Position numbers and translations under genes: made by a program
Assembly: GCF_018476525.1 (NCBI RefSeq)
Contig: NZ_JAHCST010000001.1
Location: forward strand, 312,069 to 376,068
Direction: 5' to 3'
DNA from: Acrocarpospora catenulata
GTDB lineage: Bacteria > Actinomycetota > Actinomycetes > Streptosporangiales > Streptosporangiaceae
Length of the DNA: 64,000 nt
Shown: positions 276 through 30,522 of the stretch, in pieces
Position numbering within the stretch: the first letter of the stretch is position 1
Layout: every line of letters begins with the position of its first letter
Notes under the pieces: model-generated
Database searches by the model: none
Told to the model about the DNA's origin: nothing
What the model saw: only the letters and a program-made list of their open reading frames with translations

Positions 276-457
276 GAAGACACCTCCTCCTTGACGGCGC
301 ACATAAAGTGGGCACATAGCGTGGTTCTGGTAGCTGGGAATCTGGCGGCACGGAGTCGTCGGCGGGTGGCTTGACGCTCCGGCATGCCCTAGCAATAACG
401 CCAGATACTGTGATTTGTTCCCGCGTTTAGCAAAGGACGGCGGGAAAACCTGAACCG

Positions 458-784
458 CTAGTTCCGCGGCTTGATGCTGATCGACACCTCGGGAATGGGC
501 ATCGGCTCGGCGCCCTGGAGGCGCTCGGGGGTCCAGTACTCGCCGACCGCGGCGGGGTCCTCGGACATGTGCTTGGACACCACGTCCGGGTCCGGGCTGA
601 AGCCGGGCGCGGGTCCTTCCTCGGGTTCGAGCGGGAGCGCCTCCGGGGTGGCCCCGGTGATCTGCTTCAGCTGGAGTTGCTCCTGGAGCCGGCCGGCCGA
701 GGCGGTGTGGGCCACGGCCACCCCACCCACGAGGATGACGCCGACGACTCCGGCGGAGAGCAGCATCCTGGGCGTGGGGATCAT
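458..784 (-). CDS. small exported or membrane-anchored protein, unknown function
   Basis: A 108-residue protein. I chose the ATG at 784 because GGGAGGA sits about 8 nt upstream; longer frames lack one. The N terminus (MIPTPRMLLSAGVVGVILVG) is a hydrophobic signal peptide or anchor followed by HTASAG, a plausible AxA cleavage site. The mature part is rich in Glu, Pro and Gln and has no domain I recognise. It is transcribed towards the sigma factor gene, and starts 52 nt beyond the menE stop codon. Function unknown. Confidence 0.6.
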   Translation of the reverse strand: MIPTPRMLLSAGVVGVILVGGVAVAHTASAGRLQEQLQLKQITGATPEALPLEPEEGPAPGFSPDPDVVSKHMSEDPAAVGEYWTPERLQGAEPMPIPEVSISIKPRN

Positions 785-836
785 GATGGCGTCCTCCCGA
801 GTAGCCGCCTTCTTACAGACGTATGACGAGTGCTGG

Positions 837-1925
837 TCACATCTGGTTCCGCAAGGCGACCATATCGGGTTTGCCGTTGGGCAGCAGTGGCACCTGCCGA
901 ACGTGCATGACCGCCCGGGGTGCGGCATATCCCGGCAAACGTTCCTTTGCGTAGGCGCGCAGGTCGGCCAGGCTCGCCGTACCGGCGACCACGGCGACCA
1001 CGATCTCGCCCCATTCGGGGTCGGGGCGGCCGAGCACGGCCACCTCGCGGACCCGGGGGTGGCCGGAGAGTACGGCGGCCACGGACCCGGCGGCGACCTT
1101 GTGGCCGCCGGTGTTGATCACGTCGTCGGCCCGGCCGAGCACGGTCAGCCGCCCGTTCTCCCAGGTCCCGAGGTCGGAGGTGACGAAGGGGCCGGTGGGG
1201 GGCGGGTCGAAGCGGTAGCCGGAGTAGAGCGTCGGGCCGTCGATCACGATCCGGCCGTCCGCCCGGATTTCGAGATCTACATTGTCAAGGGGGACGCCGT
1301 CGTACACGCAGCCGCCGCAGGTCTCGGTCATGCCGTACGTGGTGACGATCCCCGGATGCGCGGCCAGCAGGTCCGGGGGAGCCGCCGCGCCGCCGAGCAG
1401 GATGGTGCGGAAACCCGACAGATCGGCGTCGGCCAGGCGCCGCAGCTGGGTGGGGACCAGCGAGACGTGGTCGGCGCCGGACGCGGCCACCGCCGCCGGG
1501 TCGAAGCGTTCGTGGATCATCGGTTCTGTTCCGCCGAGCAGTGCTCTGAGCAGCACCTGCAACCCTGCCACGTGCGAGGTGGGCAGGCAGCAGAGCCAGC
1601 GGTCCCCGGCGCTCGCGCCGATCCGCTTGAGCGAGGCGGTGGCCGAGGCGATCAGGGCCGCCGCGCCCAGCCTGACCCCTTTGGGGGTGCCGGTGGAGCC
1701 CGAGGTCGCGATGATCACCGCCACCTCGCCGTCCACGCCTACGCCGTCGGGCAGACGCCGTACGCCGTCCGGAGTGACCAGGTGGGTGGGGCGCAGGTCC
1801 GCATACGACCCGCCGGGGGCCAGTGGCAGGATCGCGGGCCCGTCCTCGAACACGGCGGCCCGCAGCGCCTCCAGCAGCTGGGGACCCGGCGGGAGCAGCA
1901 GGGCGTGAACGGCACGATCAGGCAC
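837..1925 (-). CDS. menE: o-succinylbenzoate-CoA ligase MenE
   Basis: Adenylate-forming enzyme that makes o-succinylbenzoyl-CoA from o-succinylbenzoate, ATP and CoA in menaquinone synthesis. The AMP-binding P-loop IIATSGSTGTPKG is at residues 71-83, the core motif TYGMTETCGG near 200, the hinge region GRADDVINTGGHK near 268, and the C-terminal catalytic lysine is K352 (LLPNGKPDM). At 362 residues it matches the short actinobacterial MenE type, which lacks much of the N-terminal subdomain of longer acyl-CoA synthetases. Divergent from menC-menD, so the men genes here are split over two strands. Confidence 0.93.
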   Translation of the reverse strand: MPDRAVHALLLPPGPQLLEALRAAVFEDGPAILPLAPGGSYADLRPTHLVTPDGVRRLPDGVGVDGEVAVIIATSGSTGTPKGVRLGAAALIASATASLKRIGASAGDRWLCCLPTSHVAGLQVLLRALLGGTEPMIHERFDPAAVAASGADHVSLVPTQLRRLADADLSGFRTILLGGAAAPPDLLAAHPGIVTTYGMTETCGGCVYDGVPLDNVDLEIRADGRIVIDGPTLYSGYRFDPPPTGPFVTSDLGTWENGRLTVLGRADDVINTGGHKVAAGSVAAVLSGHPRVREVAVLGRPDPEWGEIVVAVVAGTASLADLRAYAKERLPGYAAPRAVMHVRQVPLLPNGKPDMVALRNQM

Positions 1926-2149
1926 GGCCCTCAGCCTAACCGTGAAATTGGGCCCGCCTCCGGCAGGTCGGCCCGGCCGCTTCGGGCAAACCCCACATAC
2001 GACTACGGAAGCCGGTTGCCGGGGTGAGGCCGATGTCCATGGCGGACCACGTGGGGATCGGCGCGGCGGCTCGGTGGGGTCGTCGGGGGAGTGCCAGGCT
2101 GGTCCTCGATGACCGCGCCCCCGGGAGGACAGCCCTGAACGACACGAAC

Positions 2150-3088
2150 GTGGAGACGATCCCCCGGGTTTTCAGCATCCCGATGCGCCTGCGGTTCCGT
2201 GGCCAGACCGTAAGGGAAGGGATGCTGCTGCGCGGACCGGCCGGGTGGGGGGAGTTCTCGCCCTTCCCCGAGTACGGTCCCGCCGAGTGCGCCCGCTGGC
2301 TGGCCTGTGCCAGGGAGGCCGCGTTCGACGGCTGGCCGGAGCCGCTGCGTACCGAGATACCGGTCAACTCGACCATTCCGGCGGTGCCGCCTGAGCAGGC
2401 CTTCGAGCTGGTCAAGGCGGCCGGGGCGGGCACCGCGAAGGTGAAGGTGGCCGAGCGCGGGCAGTCCCTCGCCGACGACCTGGCCAGGGTGGAGGCGGTC
2501 CGGGACGCGCTCGGCCCCGGCGGCGCGCTCCGGGTGGACGCCAACGGCGCCTGGACGGTGGAGGAGGCGGTCCGCGCCATCGCCGAGCTGGACCGGTTCG
2601 GCCTGGAGTACGTCGAGCAGCCCTGCGCCACCCTCGACGAGCTGGCCAGGGTCCGGCGCCGGGCCGGAGTGCCGATCGCGGCCGACGAGTCCATCCGCCG
2701 CGCCGAGGACCCGCTCCGGGTGCGCGCCGCCGAGGCCGCCGACATCGCGGTGGTCAAGGTGCAGCCGCTTGGCGGGGTGCGCGCCGCGCTGCGCGTGGTG
2801 GAGGCGTGCGGGCTGCCCGCGGTGGTCTCCAGCGCGGTGGAGACCTCGGTGGGACTCGCCGCCGGCCTCGCCCTGGCGGCCGCATTGCCGGAATTGCCGT
2901 ACGCTTGCGGCCTCGGGACCATGTCCCTCCTGACCGGGGACGTCGTCGCGGACCCACTGATCCCGGTGGACGGTGTGCTCACCGTACGGCGCCCGGAGGT
3001 GGACGAGGCCGCGCTGGCGGCAGTCGAGATCGAGTCGCCGCCGTGGTTTCGGCGGATGGAGGAAGCCGCCGCATGCCTGGCGCGCTGA
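2150..3088 (+). CDS. menC: o-succinylbenzoate synthase MenC
   Basis: Enolase-superfamily enzyme that dehydrates SHCHC to o-succinylbenzoate. Visible are the KxK acid/base motif (TAKVKVAERG), metal ligands in RVDANG, YVEQPC and AADESI, and the second catalytic lysine in AVVKVQPLGG. Family members begin near the sequence PRVFSIPMRLRFRG, so I placed the start at the GTG at 2150. A GGGAGGA at 2123 would instead fit the in-frame CTG at 2135, and the frame stays open back to 2024 (GTG) and 2033 (ATG) with residues unlike MenC. The start is therefore uncertain; the enzyme identity is not. menD begins 16 nt after the stop. Confidence 0.9.
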   Translation: METIPRVFSIPMRLRFRGQTVREGMLLRGPAGWGEFSPFPEYGPAECARWLACAREAAFDGWPEPLRTEIPVNSTIPAVPPEQAFELVKAAGAGTAKVKVAERGQSLADDLARVEAVRDALGPGGALRVDANGAWTVEEAVRAIAELDRFGLEYVEQPCATLDELARVRRRAGVPIAADESIRRAEDPLRVRAAEAADIAVVKVQPLGGVRAALRVVEACGLPAVVSSAVETSVGLAAGLALAAALPELPYACGLGTMSLLTGDVVADPLIPVDGVLTVRRPEVDEAALAAVEIESPPWFRRMEEAAACLAR

Positions 3089-3104
3089 AGGACGGAGGGG
3101 GCGC

Positions 3105-4766
3105 GTGAATCCCGCCACCGCGCTGGCGCAGGTGCTCGTGGACGAGTTGGTCCGCTGTGGGCTCACCGAGGTGGTGCTGGCGCCCGGGTCCCGGTCGGCG
3201 CCGCTGGCGCTGGCCGCGCACGCCGAGTCGCGGCTGCGGCTGCACGTGCGGATCGACGAGCGTTCCGCCGCCTTCCTGGCGCTCGGCCTGGCCAAACGCG
3301 CGGAGAAGCCGGTGGCGCTGATCTGCACCTCCGGGACGGCGGCGGTCAACTTCCACCCGGCCGTGGTGGAGGCGAGCGAGTCGGGGGTGCCGCTGCTGCT
3401 GCTCACCGCCGACCGGCCGCCGGAGCTGCGCGGCACCGGCGCCAACCAGACCATCGACCAGGTCAAGCTCTACGGCTCCGCAGTGCGCTGGTTCGCCGAG
3501 GTGGGGGTGCCCGAGGACCGGCCCGGCCAGGTGGCCTACTGGCGGTCGCTGGCCTGCCGGGCCTACCAGCGGTCGGCCGGGCCGATGGACCCGGGCCCGG
3601 TGCACCTGAACCTGGCCTTCCGCGAGCCGCTCATCCCCGACGGCGACGCCACCTGGTGCGAGTCGCTGGACGGCGACGTCACCGGGCCGTGGATCCGCGC
3701 CCGGGTGGCCCCGCCCTCGTCCGCCCTGCACATCCCGCCGACCCGGCGCGGCGTGCTGGTGGTCGGCGACGGCGCGGTCAACGTGCGCAGATACGTGGCG
3801 GCGGCGGGCATGGCCGGCTGGCCGGTGCTCTCCGAGCCCAGCGGCAACGGCCGGTACGGCGACCACGCCATCGCCGCCTACCACCACCTGCTGGGCGACC
3901 CGGGCTTCGCCGAGGCGCACCGGCCGGACGTGGTGGTCACCCTCGGCCGCCCGGGGTTGTCCCGGCCGCTGCTGTCCTGGCTGCGGCGGGCGCCGGAGCA
4001 CATCGTGGTGGCCCAGGACCTGACCCGCTGGCCGGACCCGACCCGCTCGGCCACCCAGGTCGCCCAGGCCGTGGAGATCACCGGTACGGCGGGCGACGAC
4101 GAGTGGCTGAGCTCCTGGCGGCACGCCGACCACCTCGCCCAGGGCGCCATCGACCGGGTGCTGGACGACGCGGCGCTGAGTGAGGGCCTGAGCGAGCCCC
4201 GGCTGGCCCGCGACCTGGCGGCGGCGCTGCCCAACGGCGCCCAGCTGTTCTGCGGCTCCTCACTGCCCATCCGGGACCTGGACCAGGCCATGCGGGCCCG
4301 CCGCGGCCTGCGGCTGCTGGCCTGCCGGGGGGCCTCCGGCATCGACGGCACGGTGTCGGCGGCGATCGGGGCGGCGCTGGCGCACAACGGCCCCTCCTAC
4401 GCGCTGCTCGGCGACCTGACGTTCCTGCACGACCAGAACGGCCTGATCATGGGACCCCGCGAGCCCCGGCCGGATCTCTGCCTGGTGGTGGTGAACAACG
4501 ACGGCGGCGGGATCTTCTCGATGCTGCCGCAGGCGTCGCTCGGGGTGCCCTTCGAGCGGATCTTCGGGACCCCGCACGGGGTGGACCTGGGGTACCTGGC
4601 GGCGGCCACGGGCACGCCGTACACACTGGTGGGGGAGGCCGACGAGCTGGCGCGGGCGATCAAGGGCGACGGGCTGCGGCTGGTGGAGGTGCGGACCGAC
4701 CGGGCCGCCTCGGTGCGGGTGCGGGTGGCGATGCGGGAGGCCGTGCGCGAGGCCCTGGGGTATTGA
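3105..4766 (+). CDS. menD: 2-succinyl-5-enolpyruvyl-6-hydroxy-3-cyclohexene-1-carboxylate synthase MenD
   Basis: ThDP-dependent enzyme that joins 2-oxoglutarate and isochorismate to form SEPHCHC, the first committed menaquinone step. The 553-residue product shows the N-terminal APGSRSAPLAL motif, the ThDP-activating glutamate in VRIDERSAAF, the substrate loop TADRPPELRGTGANQTIDQ, and the C-terminal ThDP/Mg motif NNDGGGIFSML. The GTG start at 3105 follows GGAGGGGG and opens directly with NPATALAQVLVDEL, where the family begins. It sits 16 nt after menC and is surely co-transcribed with it. Confidence 0.95.
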   Translation: MNPATALAQVLVDELVRCGLTEVVLAPGSRSAPLALAAHAESRLRLHVRIDERSAAFLALGLAKRAEKPVALICTSGTAAVNFHPAVVEASESGVPLLLLTADRPPELRGTGANQTIDQVKLYGSAVRWFAEVGVPEDRPGQVAYWRSLACRAYQRSAGPMDPGPVHLNLAFREPLIPDGDATWCESLDGDVTGPWIRARVAPPSSALHIPPTRRGVLVVGDGAVNVRRYVAAAGMAGWPVLSEPSGNGRYGDHAIAAYHHLLGDPGFAEAHRPDVVVTLGRPGLSRPLLSWLRRAPEHIVVAQDLTRWPDPTRSATQVAQAVEITGTAGDDEWLSSWRHADHLAQGAIDRVLDDAALSEGLSEPRLARDLAAALPNGAQLFCGSSLPIRDLDQAMRARRGLRLLACRGASGIDGTVSAAIGAALAHNGPSYALLGDLTFLHDQNGLIMGPREPRPDLCLVVVNNDGGGIFSMLPQASLGVPFERIFGTPHGVDLGYLAAATGTPYTLVGEADELARAIKGDGLRLVEVRTDRAASVRVRVAMREAVREALGY

Positions 4767-9226: not shown

Positions 9227-9376
9227 TTTACGCAGAAACTGAACGTGTTCGACATTCGGGTCGTCGGTTGCGCCGGGACTCCAGGACGCCCGGACGTCCC
9301 GCGTCGTGTCAAGGCCCGGTCAGGGCAGGGCGTGCCTACCAGGGCAAATGCGGGCCCGCGGCTAGCTTGAGTGTCC

Positions 9377-10201
9377 ATGATCAAAAAGGTCGTTCCGGCC
9401 CTGGCGCTTGCCCTGACATTTCCTGGTACGGCGTTCGCCGATACCCCTGAACGGGGCGAGACGCCCCCACGGGTGGTGCTGGCGGCGTTGGGTGATTCGA
9501 TCAGTGTGGGGTTCAACGCGTGTGGGTTGTATCTGGCCTGCCGGTCCCGGTCCTGGTCGATCGGGGACGACAAGGACGTCAACAGTCATTTCCTGCGGCT
9601 GCGAGCGGATGGCGGGAAGGTCGGCCGGCGCGCGCTCGCGGTGCCGGGGGCGACGAGTGCCGATCTGCTCCGGCAGGTCCGGCGGGCGGTGCGGGCCAAG
9701 GCGACCTACGTGACGCTGCTGGTCGGAGCGCAGGACGCCTGCACCCCGACCGAGCAGCGGATGACCCCGGTGGAGACCTACCGGGAGCGCCTGGACATGG
9801 CACTGGCCGAGCTCTCTCCGACCGGCGCGCGGCTGGTGGTGGCCAGCATTCCAGATGTGTACCGGCTCTGGCAGGTCGCCAAGGACAAGATCACGGCCAG
9901 GGTGTTCTGGACAGCGGGCCGGGTCTGTCAGTCGATGCTGGCCCGCCCAGGCTCACTCGCGGCCCCCGACGAGGCCCGCCGGCAGCGGGTACGGGAGCGG
10001 GTGCAGGCCTACAACGCCGAGCTCGCGGCGGCCTGCCAGGCGTACGGCCCGGACTGCCGCTATGACGGCGGCGCGGTGTTCGACTACCCGTTCACGCTGG
10101 CCGAGGTGAGTCCCTGGGACTACTTCCACCCGAACACCAAGGGCCAGCGAGCCCTGGCGGAGGTCACGTTCCGGTCCTTGGACGTTCCGGTGAAGGTGTG
10201 A
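9377..10201 (+). CDS. secreted SGNH/GDSL family hydrolase
   Basis: A 274-residue secreted esterase or lipase-like protein. MIKKVVPALALALTFPGTAF followed by ADTP is a clear signal peptide with AFA cleavage. Block I is ALGDSIS with the nucleophile S41; block V is DYFHPNTKG with D248 and H251 completing the triad. At least six cysteines (for example NACGLYLAC and DACT) suggest disulfides, as in streptomycete secreted SGNH lipases. The substrate is unknown. A GTG at 9371 is an alternative start two codons upstream. Confidence 0.88.
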   Translation: MIKKVVPALALALTFPGTAFADTPERGETPPRVVLAALGDSISVGFNACGLYLACRSRSWSIGDDKDVNSHFLRLRADGGKVGRRALAVPGATSADLLRQVRRAVRAKATYVTLLVGAQDACTPTEQRMTPVETYRERLDMALAELSPTGARLVVASIPDVYRLWQVAKDKITARVFWTAGRVCQSMLARPGSLAAPDEARRQRVRERVQAYNAELAAACQAYGPDCRYDGGAVFDYPFTLAEVSPWDYFHPNTKGQRALAEVTFRSLDVPVKV

Positions 10202-10205
10202 CGGC

Positions 10206-10811
10206 CTAGAGCCAGCCGTTGTGGCGGGCCAGGCGGGCGGCCTCGATGCGGTTGCGGGTGCCGGTTTTGGCGATGGCGGCGGACAGGTAGTTGCGTACCG
10301 TGCTCTCCGAGAGATGGAGGCGGGTGGCGACGTCGGCGATGGTGGCGCCGTCGGCGGAGGCGGCCAGGACCTGGCGTTCCCGGTCGGTCAGCGGGTTGGG
10401 GCCGGTGCTGAGCGCGGTGGCGGCCAGGGCCGGGTCGACCACGCGTTCCCCGGCCAGCACCCGCCGGATCGCGGCGGCCAGTTCCTCGACCGGCCCGTCC
10501 TTGACCAGGAAGCCGTACGCCCCGGCCTCCATGGCGCGGCGCAGGTAGCCGGGCCGGCCGAAGGTGGTGAGGATCAGCACCCGGCAGGCGGGCAGCCGGT
10601 CGCGCAGGTCGGCGGCGGCGTCCAGGCCGCTGCGGCCGGGCAGTTCGATGTCCAGCAGCGCCACGTCCGGCCGGGCCGCCAGCGCGGCGGGCAGCACCTG
10701 GTCCCCGGCGCCGACCTGCGCGACGACCTCGATGTCCGGTTCCAGGCCGAGCAGCAGGGCCAGCGCGCCGCGCATCATGCCCTGGTCCTCGGCCAGCAAC
10801 ACCCTGATCAT
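10206..10811 (-). CDS. LuxR/NarL family response regulator
   Basis: A 201-residue two-component regulator: receiver domain with acidic pair E8/D9, phosphoacceptor D54 (VALLDIELPG), and K104 in FLVKD; NarL-type HTH in 138-198 (NPLTDRERQVLAASADGATI ... LHLSESTVRNYLSAAI). Its ATG overlaps the stop of the upstream histidine kinase gene by 4 bp. It is the last gene of a four-gene operon ATPase-permease-kinase-regulator; in such BceRS/LiaRS- or DesKR-like sets the regulator usually controls the exporter encoded with it. Confidence 0.93.
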   Translation of the reverse strand: MIRVLLAEDQGMMRGALALLLGLEPDIEVVAQVGAGDQVLPAALAARPDVALLDIELPGRSGLDAAADLRDRLPACRVLILTTFGRPGYLRRAMEAGAYGFLVKDGPVEELAAAIRRVLAGERVVDPALAATALSTGPNPLTDRERQVLAASADGATIADVATRLHLSESTVRNYLSAAIAKTGTRNRIEAARLARHNGWL

Positions 10812-11869
10812 GCCGGTACGGTCACCACCAGCCGGAACCCGTCGGCGCCTCCGGCGGTCAGGCTGCCCCCGGCGGCCTCGACGCGTTCCCGCAACCCGCC
10901 GAGACCGTTGCCCTCCCGGGCGCAGGAGGCTCCCCGGCCGTCGTCGGCGATCTCCAGGGTGATCGGGTCGGCCGTGGTGAGGGTGATCCGGCAGGTGCGG
11001 GCGCCGCTGTGGCGGAGCACGTTGGTGACCCCTTCGCGGACCGCCCAGCCGAGCAGGGCGTCGGTCTCCGGCGTCAGCCGTACGGGCTTGTCGGGGGCGG
11101 TGAGGGCGACGCCGGCGTCGGTGAGGGTGTCGAGGGCGGCGGCGAGTTCGGCCGCCAGACCCCGGCCGCGGTAGCCGGTGACGGCGGCGCGGACCTCGGC
11201 GAGGGCCTCGCGGCCGATGCGTTCGATGTCGGCGGCCTGCTGGGCGGCGGCCTCGCCGTCGGCGGGGGCCAGGCGGCGCACCACCTCGGCCTTGACGACC
11301 ATCACCGAGAGGGTGTGGCCGAGCAGGTCGTGCAGGTCGCGGGAGAAGCGCAGCCGTTCCTCCGAGACCGCCACCCGGGCCAGTTCGGCGCGGGTGGCGG
11401 TGAGCTCGGCGATGGTGTCCCACAGCTGGACGATGATCCACGGGATGAACCCGGCCAGGAAGACGCCCCATCCGGCGATCATCAGGCCGACCGCGTCCAG
11501 GTCCTGCTGGATCGCGACCAGCAGGGCCAGCCCGGTGAGGGCCAGCAGCACCATCATGCCCCCGGCCCCGCGCACGGTGGCTCCGGCGGCGACGGCGGTC
11601 ATGGTCAGCAGGAACGACCAGGCCCCCTGGAAGGTGAAGGCGAGGGCGACCGAGGTGATGGCCAGGGCGGGCAGGGCCAGGCGGACGGCCTTGCCGCGGT
11701 CGGTGAAGGCCAGGGTGGTGGTGCGCAGGTAGAGGGCGGCCGTGACGACGATGCCCGGCCAGGCCAGCCAGAGCGGGTGGTCCCGGCCGGAGAGGATGTC
11801 CAGGATGGGGAAGGCGACGAGCAGCACCCACACGTGGATACCGGCCCGGTCGCTGCGCACGGCGTCCAT
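10808..11869 (-). CDS. two-component sensor histidine kinase (HisKA_3 type)
   Basis: A 353-residue membrane kinase with about five N-terminal transmembrane segments (residues 12-150) and almost no extracytoplasmic domain, suggesting intramembrane sensing or sensing through the ABC exporter. The H-box is RFSRDLHDLLGHTLSVM with phosphoacceptor H180; the ATP lid carries EIADDGRGA and GNGLGGLRERV. Partner of the overlapping response regulator. It begins 18 nt after the ABC permease stop. Confidence 0.92.
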   Translation of the reverse strand: MDAVRSDRAGIHVWVLLVAFPILDILSGRDHPLWLAWPGIVVTAALYLRTTTLAFTDRGKAVRLALPALAITSVALAFTFQGAWSFLLTMTAVAAGATVRGAGGMMVLLALTGLALLVAIQQDLDAVGLMIAGWGVFLAGFIPWIIVQLWDTIAELTATRAELARVAVSEERLRFSRDLHDLLGHTLSVMVVKAEVVRRLAPADGEAAAQQAADIERIGREALAEVRAAVTGYRGRGLAAELAAALDTLTDAGVALTAPDKPVRLTPETDALLGWAVREGVTNVLRHSGARTCRITLTTADPITLEIADDGRGASCAREGNGLGGLRERVEAAGGSLTAGGADGFRLVVTVPA

Positions 11870-20006: not shown

Positions 20007-22205
20007 ATGATGCGGGAGGACGGGCAGTTCACGCCGAGGGAGGCGAACGCGCTCTGCCGGAGCGCCGAGGAGCTTCTCGCCAAGGCCGGAACTCTCCTAC
20101 GGGACCACGAGGTCGTACGCGGGCTCGCCGCCAGGACGCTGGGGGCGCTGCGCGTCGAGCGTGCCAGGGCGGAACTGGCGACGGTGCCGGTGGCGCGCAT
20201 CAAGGATGTCACCGAGGGTCGACTGCGGATCAGTGCCCTGGAAGAAGCCGGATACGCGACGGTTCTCGATGTCTGCGACGCCTCGGTGTACCGGCTTCAT
20301 CAGGTTCCCGGTATCGGGGTGCGCAGCGCGAGGCAGATTCTGGCGGCGGCCAACCAGATCGCCCAGGCCGCCGTCGACGCCGTGAGCATCCGCGTCGACG
20401 CCGACCGCCGTGATACCCCGACCACCGATCTGCTGATCGCGTTACAGACGCTGGTGCAGGCCGGCCCTGATCTGAACCGCACGGTGCGGGTCGCCCGCCA
20501 GTTCAGCGACCGGCTGGGGCCGCTGCTGGCCGTCACCCGCCCCGCCCGCAGTCGGCTGCGCGGCTGGATCGCCGGCTCGCGTCGCCGGGAGCGCGCTCAG
20601 GCGGCGCTGTCGGAGATCGCCGAGGTGCTGGCCGGAGCGCCCTCCGACATCGGGCTCCTGCTTGCCCAGGTCACCGCGGATCTGCTGATCCCGCCGGTGC
20701 CTGACGTGGTGGCGTGGGCGGACTTCGCGTACCGTCCAGCCGAGTATTACGCGCTGCTCACCGAACTGGCCGGTGAGCCTGTCACCGCCGGCCTCGGCCT
20801 GCTCCCCGACGATCTTGTCGCGCGTGTGATCGCGCAGGAACTCGACGATACGCATCGGCGGGTGTCCCTGCGCGGCTACCAGGCGTTCGGTGCACGCTTC
20901 GCGCTCGCCCAGGGGCGGGTGATTCTCGGAGACCAGATGGGTCTGGGAAAGACGATCGAGGCCATCGCCGCACTGGCGCATCTGAGAAGCGAGAACGCGA
21001 CCCATTTCCTGGTCATCTGCCCGACCAGCGTGCTGATCAACTGGGTGCGGGAAATCGAGAACAGAAGCGCCTTGCCCGCCTACGGGCTGCACGGCCCGTT
21101 CGCGTCGGAGGCGCAGGCGGAGTGGGTACGGCGGGGCGGGGTGGCCGTGGTGACGCTGGGAAGCGTACACCGGCTGGAGATCCCCACCGAGGTCGCCGTC
21201 GGCATGCTCGTCGTGGACGAGGCGCATCTGGTGAAGAACCGGCAGGCCCGGCGGTCCAAGGCGGTCGAACGGTGGTGCGGCCGGGTCGAACGGGTGCTTT
21301 TCCTCACTGGTACGCCGATGGAGAACCGCGTCGAGGAGTTCCGCACGCTCATCTCCTACCTGCGGCCCACCCTCGCCGAGAACTTACGGGCCTCGGACGT
21401 CGTCGCGGGCGCTCAGGCGTTCCGGAAGGCGGTCGCCCCGGCCTATCTGCGGCGTAACCAGGAGGACGTGCTCGCGGAACTACCCATGCGTGTGGACTCC
21501 GAGGACTGGATCGAGCTCAGTGACGCGGATGTGGCCGCCTACCGGGCGGCGGTGGTCCGGCGGAACTTCATGGCGATGCGACGCGCGGCCTACGCGGTGC
21601 CGGCCACGTCGGCGAAACTCAGGCGGCTGCTGGAGTTGGTGGAGGACGCGCGTGACAACAGTTTGAAGGTGCTGGTCTTCTCCTATTTTCGCGACGTGCT
21701 GGCCACAGTGGCCGAAGCGTTGGGCGGCGCCGTGCACGGCCCGATCTCCGGCGCTGTGACGCCCGCGCGCCGTCAGCAGATCGTCGATGCCTTCTCCGCC
21801 GCGGCCGGGCATGCGGTTCTGCTGAGCCAGATCGAGGCCGGTGGCACCGGTCTCAACATCCAGGCCGCCTCAGTGGTGATCCTTTGTGAGCCGCAACTCA
21901 AACCGAGCGTGGAAAGCCAGGCCGTGGCCCGGGTGCATCGGATGGGACAGATCCGCACGGTCCAGGTTCACCGGCTCCTGGCGGTGGACTCGGTGGATCA
22001 ACGGCTGCTGGAACTGCTCGACGCGAAGGAGAGGCTTTTCCAGGAGTACGCCCACCGTAGCGACCTCGCCGAACGTACGCCCGACGCCTTGGACATCTCC
22101 GATCAGTCGCTCGCCCAGCAGATTATCGAGGAGGAGCAGCGCCGCCTCATGATCACTTCGGATGATCTTAGGAACGCTGAGGCGCAGGACGCCGGGTCGG
22201 CGTAG
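20007..22205 (+). CDS. SNF2-family helicase/ATPase with N-terminal helix-hairpin-helix domain
   Basis: A 732-residue DNA translocase. Residues about 63-115 carry helix-hairpin-helix elements (LEEAGYATVLDVCDASVYRL, QVPGIGVRSARQILAAA), a DNA-binding module. The SNF2 core starts near 285 (LRGYQAFGARFAL): motif I GDQMGLGKT (308-316), Ia/Ib PTSVLINWVREI, motif II DEAH (404-407), motif III LTGTPMENR (433-441), and helicase C motifs V GGTGLNIQAA (612-621) and VI QAVARVHRMGQ (638-648). SNF2 proteins move on or remodel duplex DNA-protein complexes. Leads a co-directional trio with a glycosylase-like gene and a giant NTPase, so DNA repair or defence is a fair inference. Third-position GC looks lower than in flanking genes. 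Confidence 0.9.
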   Translation: MMREDGQFTPREANALCRSAEELLAKAGTLLRDHEVVRGLAARTLGALRVERARAELATVPVARIKDVTEGRLRISALEEAGYATVLDVCDASVYRLHQVPGIGVRSARQILAAANQIAQAAVDAVSIRVDADRRDTPTTDLLIALQTLVQAGPDLNRTVRVARQFSDRLGPLLAVTRPARSRLRGWIAGSRRRERAQAALSEIAEVLAGAPSDIGLLLAQVTADLLIPPVPDVVAWADFAYRPAEYYALLTELAGEPVTAGLGLLPDDLVARVIAQELDDTHRRVSLRGYQAFGARFALAQGRVILGDQMGLGKTIEAIAALAHLRSENATHFLVICPTSVLINWVREIENRSALPAYGLHGPFASEAQAEWVRRGGVAVVTLGSVHRLEIPTEVAVGMLVVDEAHLVKNRQARRSKAVERWCGRVERVLFLTGTPMENRVEEFRTLISYLRPTLAENLRASDVVAGAQAFRKAVAPAYLRRNQEDVLAELPMRVDSEDWIELSDADVAAYRAAVVRRNFMAMRRAAYAVPATSAKLRRLLELVEDARDNSLKVLVFSYFRDVLATVAEALGGAVHGPISGAVTPARRQQIVDAFSAAAGHAVLLSQIEAGGTGLNIQAASVVILCEPQLKPSVESQAVARVHRMGQIRTVQVHRLLAVDSVDQRLLELLDAKERLFQEYAHRSDLAERTPDALDISDQSLAQQIIEEEQRRLMITSDDLRNAEAQDAGSA

Positions 22206-22246: not shown

Positions 22247-23371
22247 GTGGATGTGTTGGGTGAGCGGGCGTTGAACCGGGCCCTGCTGGCGCGTCAGGGG
22301 CTGCTGGAGCCGTTGGCCGGTGGGGTCGGCGAGGTGGTGGGCGCTGTCGGGGCGCTGCAGATGCAGTACTGGCCCGCGCTGGGTCCGGCGTTGTGGAGCC
22401 GGATGGCCGGGGTGGAGCCGGATGCGGGGTTCCGGGCGCATGCCGATGGGGCTGTGCTGACCGGGACCTTGTTGCGGGGGACGATTCACACGGTGGCGGC
22501 CGGGCAGTACGGGGCGTACGCGGCGGTGGCGGCGGCCTCGCGGGTGGCGCAGTGGCGTGCCGGAGGCGACCCTGGGCCGGGGGTCGGGGAGTTGCTGGCG
22601 GTGCTGCGCGAGCGGGGGACCTCGGCGCGGCCGGTCGCCGAGTTGGTGGAGATCGTCGAGAAGTGGGTGGCCGATCATCCCGGGGCGGTGAGTGAGGCCG
22701 AGGCGGCGGCGCAGCGGCAGTACAAGTGGTTCGGGCTGATGATCAGGGCTGGTTTCGTTCGGGTCCCCGCCGACGGGGTCTGGAGTCCCAAGACGCCCGC
22801 GCATTTCCTGCTGTCACCGGTCGTCGACCGGCCCGTCCTCGATGAGGCGCTGAAGTCGGTCATCCGCCTGCATCTGGCGGCCTTCGGCCCGGCCGCCGCC
22901 GAAGACGTCGCCCACTGGATCGGCTGGAACATCACGCCCGTGCGTGCCGCCCTCCGTCAGATGACCGAGTTGCTCCAATTCTCCGACGAGTCCGGCCGCA
23001 CCCTGTACGACCACCCCGACTCCCCACGCCCCGGCCCCGACACCCCCGCCCCGGTCCGCCTCCTGCCGTGGTTCGACAGCACCCTGCTCGCCTACGCCCC
23101 CGGACACCGCACCCGCCTGCTCCCCGAGCCCTACCGCGACTCCGTCTACGTCAAGGTCAACGGCCAGATCCGCCCCACCTTCCTGGTCGACGGCATGGTC
23201 GCCGGAACCTGGTCGCTGGCCGCGACCCGGCGCACCGCCACCCTGACGCTGACTCCCTTACAGCCCATCCCGCCCGCCACGCGCAGGAAATTGACCACCG
23301 AAGCGGAAAGGCTGACCGCGTTCTGCCATCCCGAAGCCGGTGACCATCAGGTCATTCTGGAATCCCAATAA
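22247..23371 (+). CDS. winged-helix DNA-binding protein, AlkZ-like DNA glycosylase family (HTH_42)
   Basis: A 374-residue protein of the HTH_42/AlkZ superfamily: RALLARQGLLEP opening, the QxQ catalytic signature Q38-M-Q40 (GALQMQYWPALGPALWSR) and LRGTIHTV (76-83), then a tandem winged-helix body and a C-terminal beta-barrel (RDSVYVKVNGQIRPTFLVDG). AlkZ and YcaQ unhook interstrand crosslinks or remove bulky alkylated bases; the related Brig1 attacks modified phage DNA. The GTG start at 22247 lies 41 nt after the helicase gene, suggesting one operon. Which lesion or modified base it acts on is unknown. Confidence 0.82.
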   Translation: MDVLGERALNRALLARQGLLEPLAGGVGEVVGAVGALQMQYWPALGPALWSRMAGVEPDAGFRAHADGAVLTGTLLRGTIHTVAAGQYGAYAAVAAASRVAQWRAGGDPGPGVGELLAVLRERGTSARPVAELVEIVEKWVADHPGAVSEAEAAAQRQYKWFGLMIRAGFVRVPADGVWSPKTPAHFLLSPVVDRPVLDEALKSVIRLHLAAFGPAAAEDVAHWIGWNITPVRAALRQMTELLQFSDESGRTLYDHPDSPRPGPDTPAPVRLLPWFDSTLLAYAPGHRTRLLPEPYRDSVYVKVNGQIRPTFLVDGMVAGTWSLAATRRTATLTLTPLQPIPPATRRKLTTEAERLTAFCHPEAGDHQVILESQ

Positions 23372-23494
23372 AACCTGACGTGGCTGAAACGAAGGCAGAG
23401 AATTCGGCGAATCTCTGCTGATGCCTGATTTCGGGCATCGCCGGCTTCGGCAGCGGTCGGCCAGGTCAATCACGAAGCACCAGGAGTGGGTGTG

Positions 23495-26400
23495 ATGTGG
23501 GCAGTCGTCCGGGTGATTGCTCTGGGATTGTTGACCGGAGGCATGGCGCTCGCCGCCAATCAAGTCCTCAACAACGGGCAACTGAGCTGGGCCTGGGTGG
23601 CTGTCGCCTTGTCGCTCGCACTTCTCACTGCCCTGTTCGCCGAGACGTTCACTCCGGCTCGAACGCCCGCTTCAGCAGCACAGGCTGAGCGGGATCTGGC
23701 CAGGGCCGTTCAGCGGCAGTGGCAGGAAGCGGCGACGAGGTCGGGCCTGATCGGGTCAGGGGAACTGCCCATCAGATGGGTGGTCGACGGGGAAGCCGGT
23801 GGGTCTACCGTCGCCGACCTCGAGGCGAGGTTCTGGTCATCGCCCGGCAAACGAATGGTGATTACCGGCGGGCCGGGTTCAGGGAAGACGAGCCTGGCCA
23901 TCCTGCTGTTGCTGCACATGCTGGAACGGCAGGAGAATGCCGGCCAGCCGGTACCTTTCCTGCTCGGGCTTGCCGATTGGAACCCGGACAGGGAGCCGTT
24001 TCATGATTGGCTGGCGGGCCGGATCATCGCCGAGCACCCCTGGCTGGCCAGTGCGACATTCGGCACCGACATGGCCAAGGTGTTGGTGGGTGCTCGCCGG
24101 ATTCTGCCGATTCTTGATGGATTCGACGAGGTTCCTCCATCCAGGCAGCGGTTGGTGGTCAGCGCGATTGAGGGGGCCTTGACGCCGGCCGATGCGTTGA
24201 TCATCGTCAGCCGGTCCAGGAATGGCCGGCAAGCTGAGCGTTTTCTCCGGAACCTGCGGCGCAGCGATCGCCTGGTGGTCAGGACGGTGCCGCTTCCGCC
24301 GCAGGAGGTGGCCAGGTATCTGCGGGAGACGCGTCCTGCGTCCGCCGGGTCCGAGGCGGGGTGGTCCGAGGTCCTGCGGGTTCTCTCCTCCCTCGAGATC
24401 GGCCCGCTGTCCCGGGCGCTGGCCAGGCCGCTCACGCTCCAGTGGTTCCGCGACGTCTACGGATCCGGCGAGGACTCTCCTGGCGAACTGCTCGATCCTG
24501 GCCGTTTCCCCCATGCCAGGGACATCGAGCGGTATCTGCTGAGCCGCTACTTCGCCGTGCGGTCCAGCGTGTCCTTCAAGCGGCGGTACGAGCCGGAAGC
24601 CGTCCAACGCTGGCTGCAGTTTCTTGCCGGTCACATGAGCGCCGGTCAGACGAGGGAACTGGAGTGGTGGCGGCTGCCCCAGGCGGTCTCCCGCTACGCC
24701 TACCTCGCCACCGGGTGGATCTCCGCCACGACCTGCCTGGTGCTGATTGGGACCTGGCTGGGCGCCTGGATTGATGCGCTGTCCATCCTGCCTTTGGCCG
24801 CGGCGGGCGGGTATCAGATCGCGTTCATGGCCGGGCGCCGGGCGACCCTCTTGGGCCATCGCCCCCGCAGTCTGCGGGGGACGGGCGGTCCGCGGTCCGA
24901 GGTGCGCAGGAGCCTGGGGGAGAGCGCGGCGTGGCTGTTCGGCGCCGGTGGTGCCGCAGCCGCTGTCATCGGCGCCCTCCAGTGGTCGATCCCCGATTTC
25001 GGCTACGGCTGGAACGTGGGGCTAATGGTGGGCTTGGCCGCCGGTTTGGCCGCCGCGATGGGAACGCCCGGCTTGCAGTACCTGCTGGCGGTCGGCCTGC
25101 TCGCGGCCAGGGGAAAGATCCCCTGGCGGTTGATGGTGTTCCTCGAACAGGCCGAACGGCAGGGTCTGCTTCAGCGAGTCGGATCGGTCTACCGATTCCG
25201 CTACCTGGAGCTTCAAGACCTGCTGGCCTACCGGCATGTCGACGCGGCCGACGTTGATCCCCTACTGGATCCGCGCGGGGAACGGAGTGAGCGCGACGCT
25301 GGGGAGCCGGCCGAGGTGAGCGCCGGGGAACCCGGCTCGCTGACCGCCCGACCGCCGGTTGACACTCCGGATGCGGGCGAGCCCGCCGTTGCGACGGAAC
25401 CGAGCGACATTCCGGGCCTTGTACCGCTTCCCGAGGTGGCTTTCCCCCGCACGAGCAAGATCGATCATGTCGTACGGGAGAAGGTCCGCGACGAGATCAT
25501 GGTCCTGCCGGAGGTACGGCTGAAGATCGTCGAATCCGGGCGGGGATGGCGCCGCGAGGCGATGGACGGCCTGGTCCGGCGGTTGCTGGCGGCCAACGCC
25601 GAGGCGATCGAACTGGCCGCGCAGTTCCACTACCAGCGGTACGCGAAGGCACGCGATGGCCTGGTCGAGGCGGCCCGCCTGCCGGCCTGGAGCCGTCCCG
25701 CCCACCTCTACCGGTGGCTGGCCTGGTGCGCGGGCGCGTCCGCGGCCTGGCTGGCAGGCATGATCTGGTTGCCGCTCCCGACCTTCCGGCTGCTGCTGGG
25801 AATCGCCTTGGCCGGGTACGCCGTCTTGGCCCTGATCATGTTCCTCTGGCGGAGTCTCCTCGCGGTATGGTCCTCGCGCGTCCGCAGGCCGGTTGAATCG
25901 GGTGGCGACCCGGAACAGGTTCGGGAACCCCGCCCGAGTTCCCTGCGGGACGGTCTGCGGGATGGTGCCCGGGCCACGGCCAGGATGCTGGCGCAGCCCC
26001 TGCCGCCGTTGCTGGCTGTGGGCCTGATCGTCACCTTCCCGTTTTCGGCGCCCGGGCCCGGGGCGGTGTGGTTCTGGGCGGCGCTGGCCGTCGCCGTGCT
26101 GGCCATCCTGATGTGGTGGGTGAGCGCCCCTTCCGCGCGGGTGCGGGTGATCCTGGCCGACCCCGACCCCGCCTCGTGGTTGCAGTTACCGCCCGGTCTG
26201 GTGCGGTTCCGGGTGGCCGCCCAGCAGGCCCACCAGGACTGGGTCCGAGCCCTGGTACGGGAGGGCCTGCTGCCCCTGATCCGGGCCGAACTCGGCGAAG
26301 AACGCGACGCGATGTCCACCACCCTGCCCGACATCGACCCCGGCCGGCTCGGCCGGTGGAGCAGGATCGACGAGTTCGTCCGCACGGCGGGCAGTGACTT

Positions 26401-27928
26401 CCTGGACGAGGTGATCGCCAGGCACGGCAGCGCCAGCATCGGCCTGAGCGGCGCGCGGGGGGCGGGCAAGAGCACCGCGCTGCGCCGGCTGTGCTCCCCG
26501 GACCGGCCGCAGACCGGCGGCCACCTCTGCGTGCTGGTGCACGCCCCGACCGCCTACGATCCCAAGGAGTTCATCACCCACCTGTTCCTGCGGGTGTGTG
26601 AGCAGGTCACCGGCGAGACCGGGGAGCGGGAACCCCGCTCTGCCCTGCGCGCCCGGCTGGTACGGGCGGCGCCGCTGGTGGCCGCCTTCGCCGGCACGCT
26701 GCTGCTGGCCGGCGCGTTGCAGTGGCAGCGCCTCCAGGCCGTGCTGGCCGGGGCGACGCGCGATCCGCTGGTGCTGGTCGGCGCGGCGGGGGTGGCGCTG
26801 ATCCTGGCCGGGCTGGCCGTGGCGTGGCGCAGGGCCCGCCGGTCGCCCCAGGCGCTCGGGTCCAGCGCCTCGGAGGTGGCGGCCCGCGCCCAGCTGCGGT
26901 CGCTGCGCTACCTGGAGGCGGTCACCCAGAGCAGCGGCGGGGAAATGGGCCTGCCGGGCGGTTCGAAGGTGGCCAGGCAGGCGGCCGTGCAGCGTACCGA
27001 GCACACGCGCGGCTACCCGCAACTGGTGGCCGACCTGCGGGAACTGCTCGGCCAGATCGCCCTGGACCGGCAGGACCGCAAGGGCAAGGTGATCATCGGC
27101 ATCGACGAGCTGGACAAGATCGGCAACGCCGAGGAGACCGAACGTTTCCTCAACGACCTGAAGGTCATCTTCGGCGTGTACGGGTGCTTCTTCCTGGTCG
27201 CGCTCTCCGAGGACGCCATCGCCGGGTACGAGCGGCGCAGCCTCGGCGTCCGCAACACCTTCGACAGCGCCTTCGACCGGATCATCCGCATTCCCGCGCT
27301 GAGCAGCGGCGAGTCCCACGCCCTCCTGGCCCGCCGGAACGTTCCCCTGCCGCTGCCGTTCGTCTGGCTGTGCCACGCCCTGACCGGCGGGGTGCCGCGC
27401 GACTTCCTGCGTACCGTGCTGGACCTGACCACGATCGCCGCGGCCGAGGACGAGACCGGGCTGGACTCGCTGGCGATCCGGCTGATCCGCCAGGACCGCG
27501 CGACCGTGCTGGCCGCCCAGCTGCGGGTGGCGGCGCGGCTGAGCGGCGGGCAGGCCGCCGAGGTCACCGGCTGGCTGGCGGAGTGCGCGGACGCCCCGCT
27601 CACCTCCGCCGCCTTGGACGACCTCGCGGAACGGCGTCTGCCGGGCGGGGAGCCGGGCGAGGCCGTGGTGGTTCAGTCCCGCGCCTACCTGTCGATTCTG
27701 GCCATGCTGATCCGGATCTTCATCGAAGCCCCGTGGTACGCGCTGGAGGAGTTGCGCACCGATCCCCGGCCGATCGACGACGTCGCCGAGACCCGCCTGC
27801 TGCTGGCGACCGATCCGCACCTGGCCTGGCACACCATCCAGCGGATCCGCAGGCAGGTGCGGTACGCCGCACCTGCGCCCCCGGCTGAGCCCGCGGAAGC
27901 GCCGGCCGGGTCGGAGCGGTCGGAGTGA
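23495..27928 (+). CDS. giant membrane protein with NACHT NTPase and KAP-type NTPase domains
   Basis: A 1477-residue protein joining two P-loop NTPases. An N-terminal membrane hairpin (1-20, 31-49) precedes a NACHT module: Walker A GGPGSGKT (125-132), Walker B LDGFDE (207-212), sensor SRSRNG and PL motif ARPLTLQWF. Membrane clusters follow (405-447, 479-538), then a Glu/Pro-rich linker (600-640) and more membrane pairs (739-789, 836-876). The C-terminal module is KAP-like: Walker A GARGAGKST (986-994), two membrane segments inserted between Walker A and B (1058-1112), and Walker B GIDELD (1202-1207), then SEDAIAGYERR. ATG 23495 sits 8 nt after AGGAG; GTG 23492 is possible. STAND/KAP proteins act as sensors or membrane-linked defence ATPases. 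The NACHT half has looser third-position GC than the KAP half. Confidence 0.85.
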   Translation: MWAVVRVIALGLLTGGMALAANQVLNNGQLSWAWVAVALSLALLTALFAETFTPARTPASAAQAERDLARAVQRQWQEAATRSGLIGSGELPIRWVVDGEAGGSTVADLEARFWSSPGKRMVITGGPGSGKTSLAILLLLHMLERQENAGQPVPFLLGLADWNPDREPFHDWLAGRIIAEHPWLASATFGTDMAKVLVGARRILPILDGFDEVPPSRQRLVVSAIEGALTPADALIIVSRSRNGRQAERFLRNLRRSDRLVVRTVPLPPQEVARYLRETRPASAGSEAGWSEVLRVLSSLEIGPLSRALARPLTLQWFRDVYGSGEDSPGELLDPGRFPHARDIERYLLSRYFAVRSSVSFKRRYEPEAVQRWLQFLAGHMSAGQTRELEWWRLPQAVSRYAYLATGWISATTCLVLIGTWLGAWIDALSILPLAAAGGYQIAFMAGRRATLLGHRPRSLRGTGGPRSEVRRSLGESAAWLFGAGGAAAAVIGALQWSIPDFGYGWNVGLMVGLAAGLAAAMGTPGLQYLLAVGLLAARGKIPWRLMVFLEQAERQGLLQRVGSVYRFRYLELQDLLAYRHVDAADVDPLLDPRGERSERDAGEPAEVSAGEPGSLTARPPVDTPDAGEPAVATEPSDIPGLVPLPEVAFPRTSKIDHVVREKVRDEIMVLPEVRLKIVESGRGWRREAMDGLVRRLLAANAEAIELAAQFHYQRYAKARDGLVEAARLPAWSRPAHLYRWLAWCAGASAAWLAGMIWLPLPTFRLLLGIALAGYAVLALIMFLWRSLLAVWSSRVRRPVESGGDPEQVREPRPSSLRDGLRDGARATARMLAQPLPPLLAVGLIVTFPFSAPGPGAVWFWAALAVAVLAILMWWVSAPSARVRVILADPDPASWLQLPPGLVRFRVAAQQAHQDWVRALVREGLLPLIRAELGEERDAMSTTLPDIDPGRLGRWSRIDEFVRTAGSDFLDEVIARHGSASIGLSGARGAGKSTALRRLCSPDRPQTGGHLCVLVHAPTAYDPKEFITHLFLRVCEQVTGETGEREPRSALRARLVRAAPLVAAFAGTLLLAGALQWQRLQAVLAGATRDPLVLVGAAGVALILAGLAVAWRRARRSPQALGSSASEVAARAQLRSLRYLEAVTQSSGGEMGLPGGSKVARQAAVQRTEHTRGYPQLVADLRELLGQIALDRQDRKGKVIIGIDELDKIGNAEETERFLNDLKVIFGVYGCFFLVALSEDAIAGYERRSLGVRNTFDSAFDRIIRIPALSSGESHALLARRNVPLPLPFVWLCHALTGGVPRDFLRTVLDLTTIAAAEDETGLDSLAIRLIRQDRATVLAAQLRVAARLSGGQAAEVTGWLAECADAPLTSAALDDLAERRLPGGEPGEAVVVQSRAYLSILAMLIRIFIEAPWYALEELRTDPRPIDDVAETRLLLATDPHLAWHTIQRIRRQVRYAAPAPPAEPAEAPAGSERSE

Positions 27929-27938
27929 CCGGTCAGGG

Positions 27939-28688
27939 TCAGATGCCGCGGCGCATCGCGCGGGTGCCGAGGGTGAGGCCGAGGGCGGCCACGGCGGTGG
28001 CGGCGAGGGTTCCGTACAGGACGGCCGGGGTGGTGAAGGCGCCGGTGAACAGGGCGCGTTCGGCTTCGACGATGTAGGTGACGGGGTTGAGGGCGGCGGC
28101 GGTCTGGAGCCAGGCGGGCCCGGCGTCGACGGGCAGGAGGACGCCGGACAGCAGCAGGAGGGGGAAGACGGTCAGCTGGGTGACGGCGTAGAAGAGTTCC
28201 CCGCCGGGGGCGGAGACGATGGCCAGGACGAAGGAGAGGGCGCCCAGGCCGACGCCGAAGACGATCAGCAGGGCCAGGCCGGTCAGCACGCCGGGCAGGT
28301 GCAGGTCCAGGCCGAGCGGGATGGCCAGGCCGATGAGGAGGCCGCCCTGGGCCAGCAGGACGACGAATTCCTTGAGCGTGCGGCCGACCAGCATCGCGGT
28401 ACGGCTGAGCGGGGTGACCAGCATGCGTTCCATCGAGCCGCCGATCAGCTCCACCAGCAGCGTGTATCCGGCCATCATCGGGCCCGACAGGCACATCATG
28501 ATCAGAATGCCGGGGACGAACCATTCCCAAGGGGCGCCGCCCAGGTCGGTGCTTCCGGACAGGACCGGGCCGAACAGGTAGAGGAAGAGCAGCGGCTGCA
28601 CCATCGTGAACAGCAGCCCGAACGGGTTGCGCCACGTGGGCGCCATCTCCCGCTCGAAGACCGTCACCGTGTCGCGGACAAATGACAT
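27939..28688 (-). CDS. ABC-2 type exporter permease (DrrB-like)
   Basis: A 249-residue permease with six membrane segments and the ABC-2 signature: FEREMAPTWRNPFGLLFTMV, GGSMERMLVTPLSRTAMLVG (a cytoplasmic loop typical of DrrB/NodJ exporters) and LNPVTYIVEAERALF. It follows the ATPase gene by 22 nt and completes a DrrAB-type drug exporter. Convergent with the giant NTPase, 10 nt between stop codons. Confidence 0.9.
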   Translation of the reverse strand: MSFVRDTVTVFEREMAPTWRNPFGLLFTMVQPLLFLYLFGPVLSGSTDLGGAPWEWFVPGILIMMCLSGPMMAGYTLLVELIGGSMERMLVTPLSRTAMLVGRTLKEFVVLLAQGGLLIGLAIPLGLDLHLPGVLTGLALLIVFGVGLGALSFVLAIVSAPGGELFYAVTQLTVFPLLLLSGVLLPVDAGPAWLQTAAALNPVTYIVEAERALFTGAFTTPAVLYGTLAATAVAALGLTLGTRAMRRGI

Positions 28689-30029: not shown

Positions 30030-30239
30030 GTTAAGCGGGTCCGGCAAGGCAGGCCGGGCAAGGCAGGTCCGGCAAGGCAGGTCCGGCAAGGCAGGTCCGG
30101 CAAGGCAGGTCCGGCAAGGCAGGCCCGGCAAGGCAGGCCCGGCAAGGCAGGCCCGGCAAGGCAGGCCCGGCAAGGCAGGTCCGACAAAGCAGGTCCGACA
30201 AAGCAGGCCCGACAAAGCAGGCCCGACAAAGCGGGTCCG
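30030..30239. repeat. 14-bp tandem repeat array, about 15 units
   Basis: Fifteen consecutive 14-bp units. Ten read GCAAGGCAGG(T/C)CCG or close (30044-30183), the next four switch to ACAAAGCAGG(T/C)CCG (30184-30239), and a degenerate unit (30030-30043) precedes them. The first and last units both end AAGCGGGTCCG. Because 14 is not a multiple of 3, every frame repeats after 42 nt as a 14-residue motif, so long open frames on the minus strand here are artefacts. The unit switch points to replication slippage in two waves. Confidence 0.95.
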
Positions 30240-30522
30240 GACGCACATGCGATATGCCGGATTGGACTGCTGAGGCCGGGTTTGGGTGGTGGCGCTGGGA
30301 GGTTAGCCAGGTGAAGAAGTACCGTCGGCGGTGAGGGTGGCGTGGGGTCGCCCGATGCTGGGGGTCCGGTGCTGGAGTTCGATACCGACATGCTGTGCGG
30401 CCGCTCGCGCGGCACATCGACGCTGGGGGTGCTGGAGTTCGATGCCGGATTGCAGGGCCGGAATCCAGGGCTGGAGCCAGGGCTGGAGTCGGGCCGGAGC
30501 CGGGGCTGGAGGAGAGCCGCGC
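30240..30522. repeat. degenerate repeats in the leader of the MBL-fold gene
   Basis: Two imperfect copies of a motif containing GTGCTGGAGTTCGAT(A/G)CCG lie at 30354-30387 and 30419-30447, followed by loose copies of CCAGGGCTGGAG at 30465-30510 that merge into the GGAGGAG ribosome binding site of the next gene. No separate gene is supported. Confidence 0.6.

Follow-up and report, generated by a model that had tools for sequence, protein, structure and literature searches.

Here we describe a gene of Acrocarpospora catenulata (Streptosporangiaceae) in which a NACHT nucleoside triphosphatase (NTPase) and a KAP-like NTPase are joined in a single membrane protein. It is found in a stretch of 64,000 nucleotides (contig NZ_JAHCST010000001.1 of assembly GCF_018476525.1, positions 312,069 to 376,068 of the forward strand), which we will call the window.

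On the NACHT side the closest systems are the bNACHT proteins, of the STAND type, which shield E. coli from phages and have the layout effector-NACHT-sensor (PMC12169576). The window protein resembles them by its NACHT module, which has both a Walker A and a Walker B motif and passes the Pfam cut-off. It differs by its membrane segments, by an N-terminal end in which Pfam recognises no effector domain and by the presence of a second NTPase at the C-terminal end. The words KAP and transmembrane are absent from the main text of the bNACHT paper.

On the KAP side, Tmn is an anti-phage NTPase of the KAP family with two transmembrane domains and a mechanism given as unknown (PMC11846954). Like the window protein it has a P-loop NTPase and two membrane segments, but its description, on which the comparison is based, has no NACHT half. 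PifA, encoded by the F plasmid, is a KAP-type P-loop NTPase, unlike the fusion in having no NACHT half; membrane depolarisation and loss of ATP are said to follow when T7 infects cells that carry it (PMC8594841, PMC9311878). The fused protein matches PifA weakly, at Walker A (PADLOC E 0.0021). QatA, another NTPase of the KAP family, assembles as heptamers or octamers (PMC13279940), but it belongs to a four-gene operon, qatABCD; it was also compared by description only.

Two other groups of systems use both types of NTPase. In conflict systems with Death-like domains KAP displaces the STAND NTPase (eLife 2021, PMC8195603); there KAP and NACHT are alternative switches, whereas the fusion has both in one chain. 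Orc/CDC6 genes are found in an operon with a KAP NTPase, or form a fusion with a STAND NTPase, for example NACHT (PMC10853773). These two-NTPase designs are alike, but there NACHT joins Orc/CDC6 and KAP has a gene of its own; a NACHT-KAP fusion is not described in the available part of that paper. Neither was one found in the available parts of PMC10907252, PMC7159879, PMC9122126 and PMC3710099, nor in any paper found by our search of the open-licence literature. The original prediction, made from the window sequence alone, knew of no described system built on this fusion, and within that literature this holds. NACHT and KAP are each known; what appears new is the joining of both in one chain.

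Two NTPase modules in one membrane protein

The frame of the fusion gene is open from GTG 23486 (1480 amino acids) or ATG 23495 (1477 amino acids). The latter is the likelier start, since AGGAG is found a few bases 5' of this ATG. The gene and its parts are the following:

23495–27928, + strand: NACHT-(membrane)-KAP-like fusion gene, 1477 amino acids, one intact frame
23495–23659, + strand: two N-terminal membrane segments, residues 1–55 (hydropathy scan)
23822–24394, + strand: NACHT NTPase, residues 110–300 (PF05729, E 3e-13)
24692–25114, + strand: membrane block after NACHT, residues about 400–540 (hydropathy scan)
25085–25249, + strand: conserved block, residues 531–585, which ends in YRFRYLELQDLLA (alignment, 11 of 11 members)
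25442–26149, + strand: N-terminal region of the KAP side, residues 650–885, with two to four membrane segments (hydropathy scan)
26342–27850, + strand: KAP-like P-loop NTPase and C-terminal region, residues 950–1452 (PF07693, AAA_22)
26651–26833, + strand: membrane pair between Walker A and Walker B of the KAP-like module, residues 1053–1113 (hydropathy scan)

The original prediction had described a polytopic protein with two complete P-loop modules, the second one with membrane segments between Walker A and Walker B. All these features have been confirmed. In the first module Walker A is found at residues 125–132 (GGPGSGKT) and Walker B at about 207–212 (LDGFDE, of the DGxDE type); in the second they are at 986–994 (GARGAGKST) and at about 1202–1207 (GIDELD). 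In each of the 11 homologues a single frame holds both modules, which is more than chance would give, and membrane segments are predicted around and inside the NTPases. Segments were counted by a simple hydropathy scan, which also flags some stretches that are probably soluble.

The N-terminal pair of segments is present in 8 of the 11 homologues; L066 and L067 have one segment and L071 has none. In the block after NACHT two segments are clear in the window protein and from one to four are counted in the homologues, a number that is uncertain. Membrane segments thus border both NTPase modules, since they precede NACHT and also lie in the stretch from NACHT to the conserved block; the original prediction did not mention those on the NACHT side. 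The two halves are joined by a variable proline-rich linker. Both NTPases would face the cytoplasm; we only infer this, as it is not certain how many segments there are in all.

The NACHT label is supported by Pfam: PF05729 is matched at residues 120–279 with 50.4 bits (cut-off 26.7, E 3e-13), and at E ≤ 0.01 in all 11 members. For the second half the profile named in the prediction falls just short, as PF07693 is matched at residues 979–1267 with E 5.9e-4 and 19.6 bits against a cut-off of 20 when the whole protein is used, and with 16.8 bits when this half is taken alone. AAA_22 is above its cut-off of 27 at residues 980–1059 (37.3 bits, E 4e-9). At E ≤ 0.01 PF07693 is found in 5 of the 11 fused proteins and in 9 of 22 KAP halves; a distant NACHT-KAP protein, L081, passes the cut-off with 25.5 bits.

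In KAP proteins the membrane segments sit between Walker A and Walker B. Hydrophobic segments are found in this place, at about residues 1053–1077 and 1089–1113, in all 11 aligned homologues, and both Walker motifs of this module are intact in every one of them. When a profile of the 22 halves was compared with a profile built from eight accepted KAP proteins, PifA among them, 62 columns round Walker B were aligned (probability 93.7, E 2e-7); the KAP proteins L108 and L109 were left out of the accepted set, as they are missed by the Walker A pattern. In the controls against NACHT, the match of the KAP-like half (probability 69.9, E 4.1e-5) and that of the accepted KAP proteins (81.4, E 1.2e-5) cover Walker A only. 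Against an accepted KAP protein of the A. catenulata genome the probability is 63.6. We use the label KAP-like because the membrane pair is present while the sequence is divergent.

Structure prediction, a check proposed with the original prediction, gave poor AlphaFold2 models, with predicted local distance difference test (pLDDT) values of 46.0 and 42.5 from three sequences in each. Foldseek with the NACHT half gave ORC on top and NLRP3 in fifth place (E 0.04), with one match below 0.001; these matches are not used as evidence. Among solved structures the single protein has no match at E ≤ 1, and a profile of the family yields short P-loop matches only. The conserved block may be akin to the winged helix in which STAND modules end; the model has a pLDDT below 50 there.

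The two halves have changed at unequal rates. In all 55 pairs compared, which are not independent, identity is higher in the KAP core than in NACHT, with means of 60% and 40%. The ratio of non-synonymous to synonymous change (dN/dS, Nei-Gojobori) was obtained for six partly overlapping pairs, and its absolute values are uncertain at high G+C. It is 0.23–0.32 in the KAP core, 0.39–0.64 in NACHT, 0.51–0.70 in the membrane block after NACHT, 0.33–0.58 in the conserved block and 0.44–1.12 in the first membrane pair. Synonymous change is likewise lower in the KAP core.

The halves also differ in composition. The G+C content at the third codon position is 0.73–0.88 in codons 1–500, against 0.92–0.96 beyond codon 900, which fits either separate histories or a weaker constraint. 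A crude gene caller based on G+C found the second half only (25499–27928); the first half is also coding, as its homologues show.

A solitary and patchy accessory insert

The KAP half is matched at E ≤ 1e-20 in 65 of the 341 Streptosporangiaceae genomes. NACHT, conserved block and KAP are found in one frame in 11 of the 341, including that of A. catenulata. In a twelfth genome (L076) the three parts follow one another in this order as well, with a distant KAP; L063/L078, L079 and L081 have a NACHT-like module and KAP without the conserved block. In a sample of the class, matches at E ≤ 1e-15 come from 12 of 394 genomes, five of them in Streptosporangiaceae; in a sample of the phylum, with the KAP core as sole query, 4 of 396 genomes match. 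All these genome counts are lower bounds, because two or three candidates were scored per genome in the family, class and phylum searches. In the class and phylum samples frames as long as the fusion are found in Streptosporangiaceae only and the remaining ones have 654–955 amino acids; outside the family a fusion was judged from this open-frame length and not from a search for NACHT.

A tree of 54 KAP domains places the 11 proteins in one clade (100/100), with L076 outside. The three NACHT-KAP proteins without the block form a separate clade (98/95). On this tree two changes are needed for the order NACHT-block-KAP and one for NACHT-KAP; on the NACHT tree the 12 proteins also need two changes, with 11 of the 28 inner forks open. 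The KAP tree kept L083, which is labelled as a long KAP protein and on reading has an upstream run-on frame; L080 may be alike. Both halves often also stand alone as separate genes; the frames collected comprise 39 with KAP alone and 16 with NACHT alone, beside 12 with NACHT, block and KAP and three with NACHT and KAP. The objection that they might always be separate is thus answered: they often are, yet the KAP tree shows joined forms in at least two of its parts.

An operon as precursor of the fusion was considered and rejected. The NACHT and block profiles match no frame in 11 stretches (8.6–20 kb) round stand-alone KAP genes, where a divergent NACHT could be missed. In L036, a long frame at 3–3674 (− strand) has a visible start which by eye looks TIR-like; it lies about 5.7 kb from the stand-alone KAP gene at 9330–11315.

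No phage record matches at E ≤ 1e-3. Among plasmid records 61 have a match, but only one covers most of the protein: it belongs to Nonomuraea gerenzanensis and has the size of a chromosome (11.85 Mb). Genome G191 is 99.96–99.99% identical to this species over the stretch compared. A 92-bp tandem duplication within a 27-bp repeat array of the NACHT half sets two near-identical assemblies of N. gerenzanensis apart (8657–8851 of L105 against 8536–8645 of L070). It shifts the frame in L105; the difference may be either an assembly slip or on/off variation.

The two genes that flank the fusion gene in the window lie outside the system:

22247–23371, + strand: left neighbour and insertion flank, AlkZ-like protein (PF06224, E 5.9e-55)
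27939–28688, − strand: right neighbour and insertion flank, ABC-2 permease

They are convergent. The stop of the AlkZ-like gene is 123 bp away from the ATG of the fusion gene, and on the right 10 bp separate the two convergent stops. Nine relatives were searched for close homologues of both flanks. In all six that are informative (G001–G004, G036 and G089) the flanks adjoin, with between −4 and 231 bp from stop to stop; the remaining three have no close flank pair and so say nothing. G004, G036 and G089 hold the fusion elsewhere in their genome. The 11 fusion genes occupy 10 contexts, one of them common to two Herbidospora; judged by eye, the genes beside them serve metabolism, regulation and transport. 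These results show the fusion gene to be an accessory insert, solitary and patchy in its occurrence.

Some other features of the window may be mentioned here. In the gap that separates the fusion gene from the AlkZ-like gene a short hairpin GATGCC...GGCATC (23420–23439) is seen by eye, at which a terminator scan found no terminator. Before the AlkZ-like gene, at 20007–22205 (+ strand), we find a SNF2-type helicase with helix-hairpin-helix. PADLOC assigns it to DrmD (5e-161) or DpdE; the NCBIfam cut-offs for DISARM and Dpd are not reached, and PADLOC may over-call here what would be a stand-alone helicase. A defence island was rejected on this ground and by the absence of a recurrent PADLOC family beside the fusion genes among the 25 of 59 families listed. 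At 30041–30240 of the window a 14-bp unit, CCGGCAAGGCAGGC, forms an array of 14 copies with 94% matches.

Possible functions of the fused protein

Some relatives share the chassis formed by NACHT, membrane segments and conserved block and differ at the C-terminal end, and some end after the block. In L117 (2586–6269, + strand; 1228 amino acids) the chassis is followed by a WD40 propeller. In L029 (7370–11764, − strand; 1465 amino acids), the same gene as that of L120 (1370–5764, − strand), it is followed by an M48-type peptidase rich in hydrophobic segments; this sibling fusion merits a study of its own. L118 and L119 have other, unassigned C-terminal extensions: that of L118 looks like a substrate-binding protein, in a region where Pfam matches nothing. 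The genome of A. catenulata has further NACHT relatives on contig 2. It would be bold to see here a new class of immune receptors, and we consider it unlikely. Its members would have a membrane-embedded NACHT chassis with an exchangeable slot for a KAP-like ATPase, a WD40 propeller or an M48 peptidase. In the fusion an ATP-dependent switch would directly power a membrane-threaded ATPase; one chain would thus combine two ATP-driven machines, which would sense infection and break the membrane without a partner gene.

For the fusion itself we tentatively favour a single-gene, membrane-anchored alarm of the STAND type, perhaps an abortive-infection defence, a function suggested by its parts. The faster-evolving NACHT half, together with its membrane block, would sense infection or a change in the membrane. 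With ATP the NACHT half would then switch and oligomerise, and this switching would drive the conserved, membrane-threaded KAP-like ATPase into an assembly. Such an assembly might open or depolarise the membrane (cf. PifA) and stop the infected cell, with abortive infection as the outcome. The NACHT profile and the KAP-type membrane insert found in 11 of 11 proteins, the patchy and solitary gene and the unequal rates speak for this alarm. So do the other C-terminal modules borne by the chassis and, as weak precedents, PifA, Tmn, QatA and the bNACHT proteins. The original prediction had suggested that one ATPase senses and the other acts; the unequal rates lend this division indirect support, and we can only infer which half has which role.

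Several observations weigh against such an alarm. The second half appears to be a divergent KAP-like family of borderline membership, as judged from its sequence; against PifA alone its profile gives a probability of 11.3 over 23 columns, at Walker A only. PifA itself may have another primary role (PMC8594841), and some defence persists without QatA (PMC13279940). NACHT motifs are altered in two of the 11 members, both Walker A and Walker B in L028 and Walker B in L067. In this half only the KAP core evolves slowly: its N-terminal region has a dN/dS of 0.09–0.56 and its C-terminal stretch one of 0.35–0.64, above NACHT in some pairs. The C-terminal slot, which belongs to the sensor in the usual STAND layout and holds WD40 in a relative, argues for KAP as the sensor. 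No convincing match for the fused proteins was found in PADLOC-DB 2.0. Their weak matches are to mad8 in all 11 (best 3.7e-8; that of the window protein spans 29 residues round the P-loop), IetA in three, mad3 in two, and PifA and GajB in one each. Finally, the survey of neighbours for defence genes that was proposed with the prediction found no shared partner in the 10 contexts, defence genes included. The PADLOC comparison covered 38 neighbours, up to two on each side (one of L073, which runs off its stretch, was left out), and among the 25 of 59 families listed none matches more than two of them. Besides the SNF2 helicase, the neighbours matched at E ≤ 1e-10, among the same 25, are single ones for PD-T4-6 and mad6 and two for mad3; the match to PD-T4-6 and mad6, which with that of the helicase is the strongest, is presumed to be a Ser/Thr kinase beside L072.

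The protein could instead have no role in defence and be an accessory membrane protein of actinomycetes, for envelope stress or development. The missing defence partner and the lack of a convincing PADLOC match would agree with it, as would the restriction of long fused frames to one family in our samples. A gene present in 11 of 341 genomes of the family, at changing sites, fits a conserved developmental role poorly, however, and the NACHT half evolves fast. We regard this alternative as somewhat unlikely.

It is less likely still that the roles are reversed, so that the KAP-like half would sense the membrane or a membrane-bound phage product, and NACHT with its membrane bundle would be an oligomerising pore effector. 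The order effector-switch-sensor of STAND proteins, from the N to the C terminus (PMC12169576), the WD40 propeller which L117 has in the C-terminal slot of the same chassis and the absence of an effector domain recognised by Pfam at the N-terminal end all point this way. Against it, L029 has an effector-like M48 peptidase in that slot, and the KAP core is the slowest-evolving part of the protein, which is not what is expected of a pathogen sensor.

A neutral joining of two independent and uncoupled proteins might be suspected from the variable proline-rich linker and from the occurrence of each half alone. It is improbable, since the joined form has been kept in a clade of 11 members and NACHT and KAP are joined in a second KAP clade too. 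An assembly error, which the prediction itself had named as an objection, or a chance reading frame is already refuted, because 11 homologues from different assemblies keep the same order in one frame.

We return to the membrane-anchored alarm, which we prefer. In this gene one half changes at the pace of a sensor and the core of the other at that of a motor, so that the question of which part is sensor and which is effector would become testable in one gene. If the alarm is what the gene provides, it would show that the membrane of bacteria can have STAND receptors built into it.
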